Part shown: positions 14,060 through 34,087 of the stretch, in pieces
Position numbering within the stretch: position 1 is the first letter of the stretch
Layout of the letters: each line of letters begins with the position of its first letter
Source of the DNA: Acidobacteriota bacterium
GTDB taxonomy: Bacteria > Acidobacteriota > Vicinamibacteria > Vicinamibacterales > UBA2999
Length of the DNA: 35,613 nucleotides
NCBI GenBank assembly: GCA_003222635.1
Contig: QHWQ01000309.1
Span: forward strand, 1 to 35,613
Direction: 5' to 3'
Notes under the pieces: generated by a model
The model's input: only the letters and a program-made list of their open reading frames with translations
What the model was told of the DNA's origin: nothing
The model's database searches: none
Program-made: the position numbers and the translations under genes

Positions 14060-14072
14060 GAGACCCCCTTGT

Positions 14073-14155
14073 TAGTTGGTAGTTGGTGGTTAGTAGTTGG
14101 TAGGTGATGGTTCATCGTTCGTGACTACGAACTACCAACTACCAACCACGAACTA
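14073..14155. repeat. TAGTTGG heptamer inverted repeat
   Basis: TAGTTGGTAGTTGGTGGTTAGTAGTTGGTAGG...CTACGAACTACCAACTACCAACCACGAACTA between a stop codon and the downstream receptor start. Confidence 0.8.
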
Positions 14156-18633: not shown

Positions 18634-20100
18634 ATGGACCGGAAGGATCTGCGTGCAATCGCGGAGCTTCTCGAACGGATTGCGAAGGATCGCAGCCTGC
18701 TCGAGGATGTGCCGGACGAGGACCGCGAGCGGTTCCTGAAGGCGGTGGCGGAGGTCTATCACCCCGATCGCGTCGAGCGGCGGCGGATGGGGAAGGTGGT
18801 GGACAAGCAGCGCAAGGCCGCGCGCGTGAAGCGCGACGACAGCGTGCTGCATGAAACGGGCATCCGGGCGCTGCGTCGAAAGCCTGTCTTTACAACGCCA
18901 AATTATTTTCCACCTGCAGAAGGTCCGGCTGAAGCCGGACCCTACGATTCAGGATCTTCTCGCGCGTCCGAGCTTCTGCATTGCTATGCGTGCAAATCGA
19001 AGTTCACGCAGATTCATCACTTCTATGACCAGCTTTGCCCGAAGTGCGCGGAGTTGAACTTCCGCAAGCGGACCGAGCTCGCGAACCTCGAGGGCCGCGT
19101 CGCGCTGCTGACGGGCGGGCGCGTGAAGATCGGTTATCAGGCGGGACTCAAGCTTCTGCGCTGCGGCGCGTACGTGATCGTGACGACACGCTTTCCGCGC
19201 GATTGCGCCGCGCGCTATTCGCAGGAGGCCGATCTCAACGAGTGGAAGGATCGGCTCGAGATCTTCGGCCTCGATCTGCGCCACACGCCGAGCGTCGAGG
19301 CGTTCTGCCACGAGATGCTCACGACGCGGAGGCGGCTCGACTTCATCATCAACAACGCCTGTCAGACCGTTCGCCGTCCGCCGGATTTCTACGCGCACAT
19401 GATGGCGCTCGAAGCGGAAAAGGCGGGTGGGGCGGGTAAGGCGGGTAGGGCGGGTAGGGCGGGTGCGTTGGTAAGGTCGTTTGGCGCACCCGTGCCGCGG
19501 ACGTCCGCTGAGATGACGCAAGTTGCGATATTGCCCGACGACAAACCAGACCAGGTTGATCTGTTCCCTGCGGGACAGCTCGATCAGGACTTGCAGCAGA
19601 TCGATCTACGCGGAAGAAATTCGTGGCGACTGCTGCTGCACGAAGTGTCGTCGGTCGAACTGCTCGAGGTGCATCTGGTGAACGCGGTCGCGCCGTTCAT
19701 CTTCAACGCGCGACTCAAGCCGCTGATGCTCCGCACGCCCGAGCGCAACAAGCACATCGTCAACGTGTCGGCGGTGGAAGGGCAGTTCTATCGCAACTTC
19801 AAGACGACGCGGCATCCGCACACGAACATGGCGAAGGCGGCGCTCAACATGATGACGCGCACGTCGGCGGCCGATTACGAGGGCTGCGGCATCCACATGA
19901 ACAGCGTGGACACCGGTTGGATCACGGACGAGGATCCTGCGGAGATCGCCGCGCGCAAGACCAGCGAGCAACGCTTCCACCCGCCGCTCGACATCGTCGA
20001 CGGCGCCGCGCGCATCGTCGATCCCATCATCAGCGGGTTCAACACCGGCACGCACGTGTGGGGACAGTTCCTGAAGGATTACGCGCCGACGGACTGGTAG
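18634..20100 (+). CDS. SDR family oxidoreductase with N-terminal Cys-rich (zinc-ribbon-like) region
   Basis: [83 protein letters not shown]; carries two repeat-derived in-frame insertions. Confidence 0.85.
18923..18945. repeat. REP-like palindrome inside the SDR CDS
   Basis: GTCCGGCTGAAGCCGGAC-C-CTAC; reverse complement GTAGGGTCCGGCTTCAGCCGGAC. Confidence 0.8.
19420..19464 (+). repeat. five 9-bp tandem repeats inside the SDR CDS
   Basis: AAGGCGGGT GGGGCGGGT AAGGCGGGT AGGGCGGGT AGGGCGGGT encoding [15 protein letters not shown]. Confidence 0.9.
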
Positions 20101-24145: not shown

Positions 24146-26929
24146 TCACTTCCTCCTTGTTGCCATCTGCAGATTGCGCCGCGCATCGTCGAACTCGGGA
24201 TCGATGGCGAGCGCCTGCTTGAATTCGTTCAGCGCGTCATCCATCCGTCCCGATGAGGCGAGCGCGATGCCGAGATTGTTGTGCGCTTCGGCTGAATCCG
24301 GATTCCACGTGAGCGCCTCGCGCAGCTGCCCGATCGCATCAGGATAGCGACGCGCCACCAGCAGATCGGTGCCGCGTTGATAATGCTCGACGAACGCGGC
24401 CTTGAGGATGGAATCGAGCTGCGCCGAATGCGGGACGACGGTGCCGAGGTAGCCGCTGCCCGCAATCGGCCGCCGGTCCGCGCCGGTCGCCACGGTTTGT
24501 CCCGGACCGACCGGAGGCGCCGTGTAGGCGAGCTCGAGCAGGGATAAATACGTGTCGAGCCCTTCGACGATCGGCGCGGGCCTGCCGGAGACGAAGCACG
24601 ACGGGCACCACGCGGCCACATGGTCGACGTCGATGAGCGACGGGGGAATCGCCTCGTTCAGCGGCAGCAACGACGTCCGCCCGTATTCCTGAATCGGATG
24701 ATCGTCGGTGACCGGCTCGACGCCGCGCGTCGCCTTCACCAGCGTCTGCGATGGCGCGACGAACATGCTGACGATGTCGCGGGGCGTGCCGAGCTCGACT
24801 CGCTGGAGGTCCATCTGGACCGCGGGCGCGCGGGCGAGCGCGGCGGCCAGGCGATGCGGATCGATTTCGTTGTGCGGGGCGGTCGTTCCCACGAGCAGCA
24901 GGTTCGATGACGCGCCGGAGAGCAGCACCGCGTTCGGGAACACATCGACGAACGAGCGCGTCATCGAGAGGATCATCGACTGCGGCACGCCGTAGGCCGG
25001 CAGCCACTGCGTCAGGTAGCCGTTCGGCTTCAGCCGCGCCCGGGCGCGTTGGTAGAACTCGGTCGTGTAGAGCGCGGCGACGCCGGCGTGCACGATCGGC
25101 GGCGGTTCGAGCGTGATGAGGTCGTACGCCTCGGACGATCGCATCTGCAGGTGATGACGGCCGTCGTTGATGTAGACCGCGACGCGCGGGTCGTGCAGCA
25201 CGTCGCCGTTGAAATCCTTGAAGTAGTCCGCGTGCTCCAGGATATGGCGCGAGAGATCGACGACCTCGACTCGTGTCACGGTGGGATGCAGCGTCGCCGC
25301 GTTCGCGGTGTTGCCGACGCCGAAGCAGAGCACGAGCACGCGTTCAGGGTTGTCGGCGAGCAGCAGCGGGACGTGCGCCATCGCGCGCATGTAGCGCTGC
25401 GAGAGCAGCTCGGTGGAGGACATCGGGTGACCGTTGGTGACGAGGACGCGCCCGCCATCAGGACCATCGGTCACGGCGACGAGCTCCGTGACACCCTCGC
25501 TGATCGTATAGGCGCGCTGCGGTGGAAAGAGCAGCGCGCGCGAGAGCAGGTAGTCGGATGGCAGCAGCAGCCATACCACGATGGCGACAATCGGAATCAC
25601 GATCGCCGCGGTCCGGCTAAAGCCGGACACTACTGGAACGGTAGCGTCCGCCTTCAGGCGGACCAACGGCGCGATCGCGAACGCCGCCGCGATCATCAAC
25701 ACCGTTGCGCTGCGCTGCATCCCGAGCATCGGCAGCAGCACGAATCCCGTGACGATCGATCCGCAGACCGCGCCGAAGGTGTTCGCGAGGTAGAGCAGCC
25801 CCGCGCGGCGGCCGACCGTCGCCTCCGCGCGCTGGATGATGGCGTTGGCGATCGGAAACGCGAATCCCATCAGCAGCGCCGGCAGGGAGACGACAAGCAG
25901 GATGGGGCGCGCGTTGAACCAGAAGTCATCGAACGCCGTGGGAGTCGTGTAGGCGCCCGCGGCGTCGCTGATGGTGCGCGCATTGACCGAGGCGAGCCCC
26001 GCGAGCGTCGAGACGATGAAGAGCACCTGCGCGGTGATCAGGATCTGCGCGGGCCTGTCGATGCGCTTCTGCACATACGCGCCAAGCAGCGAGCCGGCGC
26101 CCATCCCGAGCAGGATCATCGCGAGCAGCAGCGCGAAGACCGCGCGGAACTCGCCGAGGAGGATCGAGAAGTCTCGAAACCAGAGGATCTCCATGCCCAT
26201 GCCGGCAGCGCCGGTGAGCACGAGCGCCGCCGCGGCGGCAGTGACCGGGATGCGGGATCCGGGATCCGGGACCCGAAGGTTCTTTGGGATTTGGGGTTTG
26301 GGATTTGGGATTTGGGATTTGACGGCGAGCGCGCCGCTCGCCGTCGCGAGATTGAGTGCGACCGCGATCAACTGCGTGGCGCGAAGGCCGAACGACGGCA
26401 CGAGCGAGGAGTCGGTCAGGAAACATCCGAGCGCGGCGCCGAGCGTGTTCACGCCATACAGCCAGGCGATGCGGCGAGTGGACAGGTCCGCGCCGCGAAG
26501 CAGATGACGGATCAAGACGGTCAGCGTGCCGCCCATCAGCAGCGTGATCGGCGTCAGCAGCACGAGCGCGATCAGCGTGCGTGCCGCGTACGATCCGAAC
26601 GATAGGACGTACCAGCCGTCAGTGCCGCGCGTGTACGATGAAACGGCCGCTGACAACTCGCCGAGATCCGGCAACAGCGTCGAGATGCCGAGGCCGAGCA
26701 CGCCGATGGCGAACTCGAGCGATGCAAAGACGTGAACGAGCGAGTTCGGCCTCCGATCCGCCCACAGGCCCGCAAAGAGGCTCCCGATCCCCAGGCCGAG
26801 CATGAACACGGCCGTCACGATCGACGCGGAATAGATCGTGTTGCCGAAGACGTTGGCAAACACGCGCACCCACACCACCTCGTAGATCAGCGCGCTCGCG
26901 CCCGATGCAAAAAACAGCAGGTACAGCAT
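24146..26929 (-). CDS. fused membrane transporter-like / spermidine synthase-like protein with C-terminal TPR repeats
   Basis: N-terminal multi-TM region; RVLVLCFGVGNTANAATLHPTVTRVEVVDLSRHILEHADYF...INDGRHHLQMRSSEAYDLITLEPPP; C-terminal EAHNNLGIALASSGRMDDALNEFKQALAIDPEFDDARRNLQ. Confidence 0.88.
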   Translation of the reverse strand: MLYLLFFASGASALIYEVVWVRVFANVFGNTIYSASIVTAVFMLGLGIGSLFAGLWADRRPNSLVHVFASLEFAIGVLGLGISTLLPDLGELSAAVSSYTRGTDGWYVLSFGSYAARTLIALVLLTPITLLMGGTLTVLIRHLLRGADLSTRRIAWLYGVNTLGAALGCFLTDSSLVPSFGLRATQLIAVALNLATASGALAVKSQIPNPKPQIPKNLRVPDPGSRIPVTAAAAALVLTGAAGMGMEILWFRDFSILLGEFRAVFALLLAMILLGMGAGSLLGAYVQKRIDRPAQILITAQVLFIVSTLAGLASVNARTISDAAGAYTTPTAFDDFWFNARPILLVVSLPALLMGFAFPIANAIIQRAEATVGRRAGLLYLANTFGAVCGSIVTGFVLLPMLGMQRSATVLMIAAAFAIAPLVRLKADATVPVVSGFSRTAAIVIPIVAIVVWLLLPSDYLLSRALLFPPQRAYTISEGVTELVAVTDGPDGGRVLVTNGHPMSSTELLSQRYMRAMAHVPLLLADNPERVLVLCFGVGNTANAATLHPTVTRVEVVDLSRHILEHADYFKDFNGDVLHDPRVAVYINDGRHHLQMRSSEAYDLITLEPPPIVHAGVAALYTTEFYQRARARLKPNGYLTQWLPAYGVPQSMILSMTRSFVDVFPNAVLLSGASSNLLLVGTTAPHNEIDPHRLAAALARAPAVQMDLQRVELGTPRDIVSMFVAPSQTLVKATRGVEPVTDDHPIQEYGRTSLLPLNEAIPPSLIDVDHVAAWCPSCFVSGRPAPIVEGLDTYLSLLELAYTAPPVGPGQTVATGADRRPIAGSGYLGTVVPHSAQLDSILKAAFVEHYQRGTDLLVARRYPDAIGQLREALTWNPDSAEAHNNLGIALASSGRMDDALNEFKQALAIDPEFDDARRNLQMATRRK
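25611..25663. repeat. BIME-like pair of REP palindromes inside the CDS
   Basis: GTCCGGCTAAAGCCGGAC-A-CTAC-TGGAACG-GTAG-C-GTCCGCCTTCAGGCGGAC; translated in frame as VRLKADATVPVVSGFSRT. Confidence 0.88.
26247..26320. repeat. heptamer repeats inside the CDS (GGGATCC and GGGATTT families)
   Basis: GGGATGC GGGATCC GGGATCC GGGACCC GAAGGTT CTTT GGGATTT GGGGTTT GGGATTT GGGATTT GGGATTT; translated on minus as SQIPNPKPQIPKNLRVPDPGSRIP. Confidence 0.9.
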
Positions 26930-27042: not shown

Positions 27043-29961
27043 ATGAATCGTCTCGTCATGACCGCGTTGGCTCTCGCGGTGCTGATTGGACTTGCGGCGC
27101 CCGCGCGCGCGCAGGTCGTCGGCCAGATTCAAGGTACCGTGACCGACGCGCAGGGCGCCGTGCTGCCCGGCGTGTCGTTGACCCTGCGGAACAGCGAAAC
27201 CGGCGCCGTGCGCACCAGCGTCAGCGAAGGCGACGGACAGTACCGCTTTGCCGGGCTGCAGCCCGGGACCTACGCCCTCAAGGCGGAGCTCCAGGGCTTT
27301 GCGACGGTTGACGTCGAACGCCTCACGATCAACATCGGTCTCCAGCTGCAGCAGGACCTCAAGATGCAGCTGCAGAGCCTGCAGGAAACCGTGACGGTCA
27401 CCGGCGAAGCGCCGGTCATCGAGGTGACGCGCACCGAGGTGGCGCAGGTGATCACGCAGGAGCAGATCGACACGCTGCCGATGGCCGACCGCCAGCCGGC
27501 GAGCCTCGTGCTGCTGCTCCCGGGCACCAACATGGACAACACGCAGGTGCGCCGCGCGCAGGCCAACATCGGCGCCGGCGGCATCAACAACCAGATGAAC
27601 GCGTACTTCCTCGACGGCGCCTCGAACTGGTCGACCAACTCGGGCCAGCAGCACGCGGAGATGCCGCAGCTCGCCATCCGCGAGTTCCGCGTGAACGTCG
27701 CGCAGGCCTCGGCCGAGCATGGCGGCAACGTCGCCGGGCTGGTGAGCATCGTCACGAGGAGCGGAACGAACCGCTTCAGCGGCGAGGCGCTCGAATACTT
27801 CAAGAACCAGAATCTGCAGGCGCGCGACAAGAACGCGGAAGACGTGGGCGCGCCCAAGCCGGACTACAAGCGCAACAACTGGGGACTCTCGCTCGGCGGT
27901 CCGGTCCTCAAGGACAAGCTGCACTTCTACAGCGCCATCGAATATCAGACGGAGAACAAGTCCTTTACCGTCAACACCGGCCAGCCGCGCTTCTACAGCG
28001 CGCTCGAAGGCGTCTTCCCGACCGACTACCGGCGCCACAAGTACTTCCTGCGCGGCGACTGGCAGATCAACCAGGCGCAGAGCCTGTTCGTCCGCTACGG
28101 CCGCGACTTCGAGCACATCGACTGCGAGGCATGCGGCGGGCTCAACGCGGCGTTCAGTCAGAGCTACGTCGAATCGCCGCGCGACACGACGGTCACCGGA
28201 CACACGTGGGTGATCAGCAATCGCGCGCTGAACGAGCTCCGGGTGCAGTACCCAGCCCGCCTCTGGAACGCGAACGGACCTCCGGGAACGCCTGTATGGG
28301 ACCGCCCGGGAGAATTTCCGGCGGAGCGATTCAACGGCTACACGCAGGTCTACAACTTCCCGAGCCTGCGCTGGGGATCGGCGACCGCGAGCCTGAACTT
28401 CACGAAGCGCTTCGAGGTCAAGGACGACTATTCGTACTCGGCCGGCAACCAGCAGTGGAAGTTCGGCGGCGGGTACGAACGCTACATCTCGCCGGAAGAC
28501 GTCGTCGCCAACCTCGGGACGTGGACGTTCTCGACCGACCAGTTCTTCGACGGCTCGGCGGCCGCGATCGCCGCGTTGAGGAACCCGGTCTCGTTCACCG
28601 CGTCGTTCCCCTCCACGGTGCGCAAGCTGCACAACTACTGGATGAACGGGTACGCGCAGGACGAGTGGAAGCCGATCAGCAACGTGACCGTCAACCTCGG
28701 CCTCCGCTACGACACCCAGTACCACTCGTTCAACAATCAGCTCGATTTCACGGGCCGCGAGGTGTTGAAGCAGCTGGTCGACCCGACGTCGCGGCACGAC
28801 AACAACAACTTCGGTCCGCGCGTCGGCGTGGCGTGGGACGTCACCAACGACACGAGGACGCTGGTGCGCGCGGCGTACGGACGGTTCTACCAGTACCTGC
28901 CGCAGGGCAGCCTGCGAAACGAGCTCGGCACGCTCCTGCAGAACAGCATCAGCATCACGAACCCCTCGTATCCGGATCCGTACGGCGGCCTGTCACAACA
29001 GGCGTTCGTGACGGTGTCGGCGCGGCCGAACGTCAACATTCTTGACGACAACATCCAGAACATGACGGGCGATACGGCGACCGGCGGCGTCTCCCGGCAG
29101 TTGATGCGCAACCTCGCGATTCACGTCGACGGTGTCTACACGAACCTGCGGCAGTTCGCGCGGACGCAGAACATCAACCAGCCGAGGCCCGCGTTCGACT
29201 TCACGACGCTCGACGCGGCGACGGCCGCGAAGATCGCCGCGTTCTCGACCGCGCAGCTCAACGCCGCGCGGCCGATGGCGAACTGGGGGAACATCGTCCA
29301 GCTGACGTCCAACGGCTGGAGCCACTATCGGGCGCTGTACGTGCGGCTCGACAAGCGGATGGCCAACCGCTACATGTATCTCGTCTCGTATACGAGGGAC
29401 TGGACGACCAATTCGGTCGACAACGTGTCGGACTTCTACCATCCAGACCTCGACACCGGGCCGAGCGGCCGGAAGCACACGCTGGTCGCGAGCGGCTCCG
29501 CGCGGCTGCCGTTCGATCTCACGTTCGGCGCGGTCTGGACCATTCGTACGGCGCTCCCGTACAGCGCGCTCTCGGGCGTCGATTTCACCGGCGACGGCAC
29601 GATCGATTTCGTCCCGGGGACGTCGCGCAATCAGGCAGGGCGCGACAGCGCGGGCACCGCGTTCGTGCTGCAGAAGGTCAACGAGTGGCGGGCGGTGCGC
29701 AACCTCGCGCCGATTCCGGCGAGCCAGCTGCAGAGCAGCGACTTCAACCGGTTCGACATCCGGTTGAGCCGCGCGCTGCAACTGGGCGGCGGCCGCAGCG
29801 TCGATCTGGTCGCACAGGTGATCAACCTCTTCGGACGCGACAACCTGATAGGCGGCACCGGCGGCACCTTCACCAACATTGCGCTCTCGAGCTCGTTCGG
29901 TAAGTACGCGGTCGCGGCGCCGCGTCAGGAAGCCGAAGTCGGTATTAGTTTTAAATTCTAG
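27043..29961 (+). CDS. TonB-dependent receptor with N-terminal carboxypeptidase-regulatory-like domain
   Basis: 972 aa; GQIQGTVTDAQGAVLPGVSLTLRN; ETVTVTGEAPVIEVTRTEVAQVITQEQIDTLP; ends EVGISFKF; RBS GAAGGAGATC. Confidence 0.93.
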   Translation: MNRLVMTALALAVLIGLAAPARAQVVGQIQGTVTDAQGAVLPGVSLTLRNSETGAVRTSVSEGDGQYRFAGLQPGTYALKAELQGFATVDVERLTINIGLQLQQDLKMQLQSLQETVTVTGEAPVIEVTRTEVAQVITQEQIDTLPMADRQPASLVLLLPGTNMDNTQVRRAQANIGAGGINNQMNAYFLDGASNWSTNSGQQHAEMPQLAIREFRVNVAQASAEHGGNVAGLVSIVTRSGTNRFSGEALEYFKNQNLQARDKNAEDVGAPKPDYKRNNWGLSLGGPVLKDKLHFYSAIEYQTENKSFTVNTGQPRFYSALEGVFPTDYRRHKYFLRGDWQINQAQSLFVRYGRDFEHIDCEACGGLNAAFSQSYVESPRDTTVTGHTWVISNRALNELRVQYPARLWNANGPPGTPVWDRPGEFPAERFNGYTQVYNFPSLRWGSATASLNFTKRFEVKDDYSYSAGNQQWKFGGGYERYISPEDVVANLGTWTFSTDQFFDGSAAAIAALRNPVSFTASFPSTVRKLHNYWMNGYAQDEWKPISNVTVNLGLRYDTQYHSFNNQLDFTGREVLKQLVDPTSRHDNNNFGPRVGVAWDVTNDTRTLVRAAYGRFYQYLPQGSLRNELGTLLQNSISITNPSYPDPYGGLSQQAFVTVSARPNVNILDDNIQNMTGDTATGGVSRQLMRNLAIHVDGVYTNLRQFARTQNINQPRPAFDFTTLDAATAAKIAAFSTAQLNAARPMANWGNIVQLTSNGWSHYRALYVRLDKRMANRYMYLVSYTRDWTTNSVDNVSDFYHPDLDTGPSGRKHTLVASGSARLPFDLTFGAVWTIRTALPYSALSGVDFTGDGTIDFVPGTSRNQAGRDSAGTAFVLQKVNEWRAVRNLAPIPASQLQSSDFNRFDIRLSRALQLGGGRSVDLVAQVINLFGRDNLIGGTGGTFTNIALSSSFGKYAVAAPRQEAEVGISFKF

Positions 29962-30075
29962 GGGGAAGGGAAAAGGGGGAAGGGGGAAGGGCGGGTCCAG
30001 TCGTCAGGATTCGGTTGCTTAGGCCTTAGGCCTACACCCCTGACCACTAGACCAGCCCTTCCCCCCAACCCCTGC
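29959..30075. repeat. GGGGAAG-type repeat with nested inverted repeats downstream of the receptor
   Basis: GGGGGAAGGGCGGGTCCAG (29982-30000) pairs with CTAGACCAGCCCTTCCCCC (30047-30065); inner GTCAGG/CCTGAC and TAGGCCT-T-AGGCCTA. Confidence 0.75.
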
Positions 30076-31056: not shown

Positions 31057-31058
31057 GA

Positions 31059-31131
31059 AATCCCAAATCCCAAATCCCCAAATCCCAAGGACCTCGGTTG
31101 AATCGCGACCGGTTCCTTGGGATTTGTTTTT
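31059..31131 (+). terminator. intrinsic terminator built from AAATCCC heptamers
   Basis: (AAATCCC)n ending AAATCCCAAGG (31080-31090) pairing with CCTTGGGATTT (31115-31125), followed by GTTTTTG. Confidence 0.75.
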
Positions 31132-32368: not shown

Positions 32369-32746
32369 ATGGACGAACTGGACGTCTACGCGGCGATCGG
32401 CGAGGACGGATTCCGCCGCCTCATCGCCGCGTTCTACCGGCAGGTGCCGGGCGACGAGATTCTCGGACCGATGTACCCGGCGCGTGATCTCGCGGGCGCG
32501 GAGCAGCGGCTGTGCGACTTTCTGATCGGCCGCTTCGGCGGCCCGCAGCGCTACATCGAGCAGCGCGGCCATCCGCGGCTGCGGATGCGGCACATGCCGT
32601 TCGCGGTCAACCCCGCGGCGCGCGAGCGCTGGCTGCTGCTGATGACCAACGCGCTCGACGAAGTCACGCTTCCTCGTGAAGTCGATGCGTTGCTGCGTGA
32701 ATTCTTCGCCGGGGTATCGGCTATGCTCGTCAACCGTCCTGGTTAG
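32369..32746 (+). CDS. truncated haemoglobin (group II-like globin)
   Basis: LIAAFYRQVPGDEILGPMYPARDLAGAEQRLCDFLIGRFGGPQRYIEQRGHPRLRMRHMPFAVNPAARERWLLLM. Confidence 0.92.
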   Translation: MDELDVYAAIGEDGFRRLIAAFYRQVPGDEILGPMYPARDLAGAEQRLCDFLIGRFGGPQRYIEQRGHPRLRMRHMPFAVNPAARERWLLLMTNALDEVTLPREVDALLREFFAGVSAMLVNRPG

Positions 32747-32799
32747 TTGGTAGTTGGTAGTTGGTAGTTGGTAGTTGGTGGTTGGTAGTTGATGGTCGG
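32744..32799 (+). repeat. eight consecutive TAGTTGG-family heptamers starting at a stop codon
   Basis: TAGTTGG x5, TGGTTGG, TAGTTGA, TGGTCGG; first TAG is the globin stop codon. Confidence 0.95.
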
Positions 32800-34067: not shown

Positions 34068-34087
34068 GGTCCGGCTTCAGCCGGGCC
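34068..34087. repeat. REP-like palindrome, intergenic
   Basis: GGTCCGGCT-TC-AGCCGGGCC between the DUF962 and methyltransferase genes. Confidence 0.65.

Follow-up and report, generated by a model that had tools for sequence, protein, structure and literature searches.

A tail-to-tail GTAG REP heterodimer read in frame within a membrane-protein gene of an Acidobacteriota bacterium

Introduction

How does a pair of facing palindromes come to lie within the open reading frame of a membrane protein? This question is raised by a 35,613-nt stretch of DNA (hereafter, the window; contig QHWQ01000309.1 of assembly GCA_003222635.1) from an Acidobacteriota bacterium of the order Vicinamibacterales. A preliminary description made from the letters of the window had proposed that two hairpins at 25611-25663 form a BIME-like pair of REPs tagged with GTAG, of the kind recognised by RAYT (TnpA-REP) transposases, and that this pair is translated in the manner of the Rickettsia palindromic elements. 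In GTAG REP families, tail-to-tail dimers, heterodimers and intragenic dimers are all on record (Di Nocera, De Gregorio and Rocco 2013, PMC3733652). That survey calls the preference for heterodimers unexplained and, for tail-to-tail and heterodimer arrangements, mentions the cost of long perfect inverted repeats as one possible reason. RAYT transposases have been described to act on single-stranded REP hairpins (PMC8266576). Here, we report the repeat family to which the pair belongs, its candidate transposase and the proteins in which its copies lie. We conclude, with a probability of roughly 90%, that the window carries a GTAG REP heterodimer, probably spread by a RAYT, which entered a membrane-protein loop in frame and is tolerated and translated there.

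Results

The window pair runs GTCCGGCTAAAGCCGGAC (25611-25628), A, CTAC (25630-25633), TGGAACG, GTAG (25641-25644), C and GTCCGCCTTCAGGCGGAC (25646-25663), and its two GTAG-tagged hairpins are inverted with their tails pointing inward (tail-to-tail, Table 1). The facing hairpins, both tetranucleotide tails (GTAG/CTAC) and the spacer of 7 nt agree exactly in position and sequence with the preliminary description. The 8-bp stems given at the same time hold if a 2-nt loop is allowed, but folding yields 7 bp and a 4-nt loop (z ~ -5.5). The reading as a GTAG REP pair stands as well, although "tail-to-tail REP heterodimer" fits the arrangement better than BIME, and it is this identification that we find largely supported. 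A diverged REP-like palindrome without the GTAG tag (GTCCGGCTTCAGCCGGGC) is also present in the window at 34069-34086.

Table 1. Position of the repeats and of the genes that carry them in the window
Feature	Position	Strand	Remark
REP unit 1, G-type, GTAG-T-GTCCGGCTTTAGCCGGAC	25611..25633	-	encodes VVSGFSRT of the host protein
7-nt spacer between both GTAG tails	25634..25640		TGGAACG
REP unit 2, C-type, GTAG-C-GTCCGCCTTCAGGCGGAC	25641..25663	+	antisense to the host gene; encodes VRLKADAT
Host ORF, 927 aa	24146..26929	-	membrane transporter/spermidine-synthase-like fusion protein with TPRs at the C terminus; residues 423-440 form the REP peptide
7-bp arrays (CCGGGAT, TTTGGGA), second repeat class, in the host ORF	26245..26321		encode the other variable linker SQIPNPKPQIPKNLRVPDPGSRIP (IPNPKPQIPK)
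Single exact REP copy in another called gene (18634-20100, +)	18923..18945	-	reads GPAEAGPY; a short-chain dehydrogenase domain follows

We searched the genome of origin (a draft assembly of 428 contigs and 5.6 Mb, 88% complete) with the degenerate 23-mer GTAGNGTCCGNCTTNAGNCGGAC. It matched 165 times, against 0 for a reversed-pattern control, and with up to three mismatches it matched 252 places against 1, a number in which the palindrome may count on both strands. Because 165 copies stand against none in the control, the palindrome represents a repeat family, and we rejected a chance origin. The exact copies comprise 94 with CCGGCTT (G-type) and 71 with CCGCCTT (C-type). When copies no more than 150 bp apart were clustered, they fell into 71 singles, 41 pairs and 4 triplets. 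Among the pairs, 40 are inverted, all with their GTAG tails inward, and one is direct. All 40 inverted pairs join one G-type to one C-type unit (20 per order), whereas at random mixed types would be expected with a frequency of 0.49 per pair; this provides a clean case of heterodimer preference. BIMEs are characterised by alternation of two REP types with conserved spacer motifs; here the two types alternate within pairs, and the spacers measure 3 to 50 nt overall and 3-12 nt in 26 of the 41. The exact repeat is present in 8 of 297 genomes sampled across the phylum and in 40 of 149 genomes of the same order, the highest copy number being 519 (G088). Head-to-head pairs are found among the listed copies of some relatives, G408 and G116 for example, so the arrangement of pairs varies among genomes.

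A RAYT gene flanked by REPs, direct upstream and inverted downstream, is present in two relatives (G314 and G088). The flanking REPs are exact or near-exact copies of the window family, and both RAYTs, 67% identical to one another, exceed the cut-off of the REP-associated model NF047646. In the window's own assembly, which at 88% completeness may lack an intact cognate gene, no intact RAYT flanked by window-family REPs was found. Four Y1 matches were recovered there. A relic on C185 is 61-66% identical to the G314 and G088 RAYTs over 70 aa and carries a REP at its N terminus, after which it is truncated. The Y1 gene on C394 exceeds the NF047646 cut-off and is 44% identical to the REP-flanked RAYTs; it is not itself REP-flanked, with nothing but a diverged REP-like site ~1 kb away. 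The genes on C237 and C45 were discarded as cognate candidates, being under the cut-off and distant from the REP-flanked RAYTs.

We next turn to the protein that contains the pair. The host ORF has a high coding score with our simple codon-usage gene caller, contains Spermine_synth and TPR domains and has homologues that align over its full length in many related genomes. The ORF is real: homology extends to either side of the pair, which is read through in frame as had been suggested, giving the 18-residue peptide VRLKADATVPVVSGFSRT. In an AlphaFold model of the host protein (28 sequences, mean pLDDT 86), the REP residues form a coil that joins two long, probably transmembrane helices, and pLDDT falls below 50 at residues 428-434, within the insert. 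The protein is presumably made, and folds, with the insert in place. The named homologues come mostly from Acidobacteriota MAGs, several of them labelled subgroup 6, which by itself would make Vicinamibacterales the probable order. One homologue (L025), from a record titled Acidimicrobiia bacterium, groups with Acidobacteriota, and the label of that record is probably wrong.

The linker that holds the pair varies greatly between homologues. Among relatives and paralogues no empty site was found at the window locus, where the linker cannot be aligned: the linkers of relatives have ~26-38 residues of unrelated sequence, and insertion and later erosion are therefore inseparable at this site. In a paralogue on C188, this linker (linker 2) likewise holds a REP pair, offset by ~3 codons and with a different spacer and unrelated flanking DNA. 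In a maximum-likelihood tree the window protein (C6) and C188 fall in separate supported clades whose nearest members have no REPs there, which favours two insertions, and the C188 pair is apparently independent of the window pair. In several homologues (L038, L039, L041, L043, L047 and L015), the other variable linker (residues ~203-222) contains REP-derived peptides; in the window protein and in C188 (G000 C188 ~28479-28514) it holds 7-bp arrays. Across the genome there are dozens of matches to the TTTGGGA array pattern. Additional 7-bp tandem arrays (TTGGTAG, AGGGGGA, AAATCCC, TAGTTGG) lie in the window at 14069-14155, 29960-29991, 31058-31088 and 32744-32791, mostly near gene ends; several distinct 7-bp units thus exist together in the window.

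To place the copies relative to genes, we called genes with a home-made codon-usage script (coding fraction 0.90) over ~1 Mb that took in the surroundings of every exact copy and some background sequence; diverged copies elsewhere are under-sampled. Both intragenic and intergenic copies are present: 94 of the 165 are intergenic, 22 lie across gene ends and 49 (30%) fall within called genes, against 88% of random positions. For 22 clusters, 30 aa or more separate the repeat from either end of the gene. Inside genes the repeat reads VVSGFSRT, VRLK[PA]D[TA]T, GPPEGGHY-like or SVRLQPD. Since phases that contain a stop are impossible within an ORF, this reading-frame pattern reflects survivorship and is not evidence for frame selection. 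The copies lie in both orientations in functionally unrelated genes, and the expectation that the same peptides would recur in unrelated proteins was borne out by several cases. The enzymes concerned include an Lhr helicase, an FAD enzyme, a thiolase, threonine synthase, prephenate dehydrogenase, UbiD, polyphosphate kinase and GlgE. Open frames and homology suggest that REPs would be translated in frame within these unrelated proteins. No mention of the peptides VRLKPD, SGFSRT or VRLQPD was found in the literature searched. In a separate locus (L082, 4000-4875), a GlgE-like N-terminal domain contains a row of REP-derived peptides (VRPKEEVRLKEKVRLKADTTETGAPHDTVVSGFSRT), apparently from several insertions in succession.

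Judged from alignments with homologues, the copies in other genes are insertions. In the Lhr helicase, the REP pair is a net insertion of 17 aa relative to most homologues (two of them ~80% identical overall) and is also absent from the solved mycobacterial Lhr (7lhl/5v9x). An AlphaFold model places this insert in a coil between a helix and a strand, with pLDDT <50 at residues 197-209. In the FAD-dependent enzyme, a single REP accounts for 6 extra residues at a turn relative to ~80% identical homologues, and in the thiolase ~10 additional residues lie between the two domains. In threonine synthase and prephenate dehydrogenase, the REP takes the place of native loop residues, and length changes little or not at all. 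Empty sites in homologues are thus clean for Lhr and the FAD enzyme, but none is clean at the hypervariable linker of the window. One FAD-enzyme homologue (L238, G116 C42) is reported with an in-frame TGA.

Discussion

A RAYT transposase (TnpA-REP, Y1/HUH) would probably have spread these REPs by working on single-stranded REP hairpins, a unit such as GTAGTGTCCGGCTTTAGCCGGAC being a candidate substrate for binding and cleavage by an enzyme of the G314/G088 type. Such an enzyme may well have mobilised the window copy; the heterodimer would have landed in frame in a loop of the membrane protein and there been tolerated and translated. Selection presumably removes insertions that disrupt the reading frame or a folded element; the copies that persist would then be those in intergenic DNA, at the ends of genes and in flexible linkers. 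The window insert itself is probably neutral rather than selected.

Could the pair instead be kept for a function? It may act in the mRNA as a hairpin (in attenuation, stabilisation or translational pausing between membrane segments), its peptide being incidental. Folding of the RNA strand across the pair predicts a single long imperfect hairpin (-34.3 kcal/mol, z -6.8), and REPs are proposed as RNA elements in the literature (PMC3733652). We nevertheless regard an RNA role as unlikely, given that homologues do without the repeat at this site, that intragenic copies lie in unrelated genes in either orientation and that an Rfam search returned no match. We similarly doubt that this transporter family has domesticated the peptide as a useful linker, with linkers repeatedly built from repeat DNA. 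A paralogue from another supported clade does have a like pair in the same linker, ~3 residues further along, and the other linker of several homologues has REP peptides or 7-bp arrays. But the linkers are conserved in neither sequence nor length, many homologues have no repeat at all, and a tolerant landing site accounts for the pattern equally well. Repeated landing in linkers requires only that linkers be tolerant, and a positive role is not needed. It is a tentative and rather improbable generalisation that REP heterodimers and short tandem arrays repeatedly provide flexible protein linkers in this acidobacterial order; if true, a domesticated-transposase system would be a source of in-frame linker peptides, beyond intergenic clutter.

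The C6 and C188 pairs might also have arisen by gene conversion or shared descent, given that in both proteins linker 2 holds a REP pair and linker 1 a 7-bp array. The differences in flanking DNA, spacer and insertion point, together with REP-free nearest members of each clade in linker 2, make this quite improbable, and shared descent was judged unlikely from the tree. A chance palindrome or an assembly artefact is close to negligible: the genome is a draft, but the exact copies stand against an empty control, homologous ORF sequence flanks the pair on both sides on one contig, and many further in-frame copies exist. Misassembly was rejected. We therefore retain a RAYT-spread heterodimer, tolerated in a loop, as the preferred reading.

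The family shares with the GTAG REPs of the 2013 survey the GTAG tag, a short GC-rich palindrome, tail-to-tail dimers and heterodimers, and a mostly intergenic location with some copies translated within known proteins (PMC3733652). This is a likeness by description, and in the survey Acidobacteria appear only for tyrosine transposases with other flanking terminal repeats. Several features by which GTAG REPs are recognised were found here, namely a tag beside the palindrome, high copy number, a mainly intergenic location and dimers in opposite orientation, and the cognate RAYT with the same flanking REPs was found in relatives G314 and G088. Compared with the REPtron, a RAYT/TnpA-REP gene with flanking REPs (PMC2817692, PMC8266576), the system has a Y1 transposase of the same REP-associated model, flanked in G314 and G088 by inverted copies of the same REP; the window's genome differs in having only a truncated relative, and RAYT activity here is a prediction from sequence. 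REPINs are likewise inverted REP doublets and probably the unit of movement (PMC3116915). Those of P. fluorescens, however, are described as mostly combining REPs of one group, and their counts refer to extragenic DNA, whereas the pairs of the window family are strictly two-type and 30% of its copies are in genes.

The comparison with Rickettsia palindromic elements survives as a concept (a palindromic repeat, in frame and translated in unrelated proteins) but not in tag or lineage. RPE-4 and RPE-6 are listed in the survey among the CGTC repeats, a class without a known dedicated transposase (PMC3733652), and the window REP, with its GTAG tag and other lineage, is neither rickettsial nor of the CGTC class. 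Intragenic translated GTAG REP dimers are already known from other bacteria, as the 2013 survey reports (PMC3733652). The present work adds a REP family from Acidobacteria together with its RAYT, a pairing that is exclusively heterodimeric, and insertions into core enzymes that are well resolved. With its 5.6 Mb, its apparently non-reduced state and translated REPs in its core enzymes, this genome lends itself to asking how mobile DNA comes to be accepted by proteins: the insert is short and of known sequence, empty sites are available from relatives, and there is a candidate transposase, with REPs of its own, that can be expressed. A separate RAYT gene (L192 of G167, 1270-1969) has flanking REPs with the same stem and with TGAG-like tags in place of GTAG, and possibly represents a family with an altered recognition tetranucleotide.
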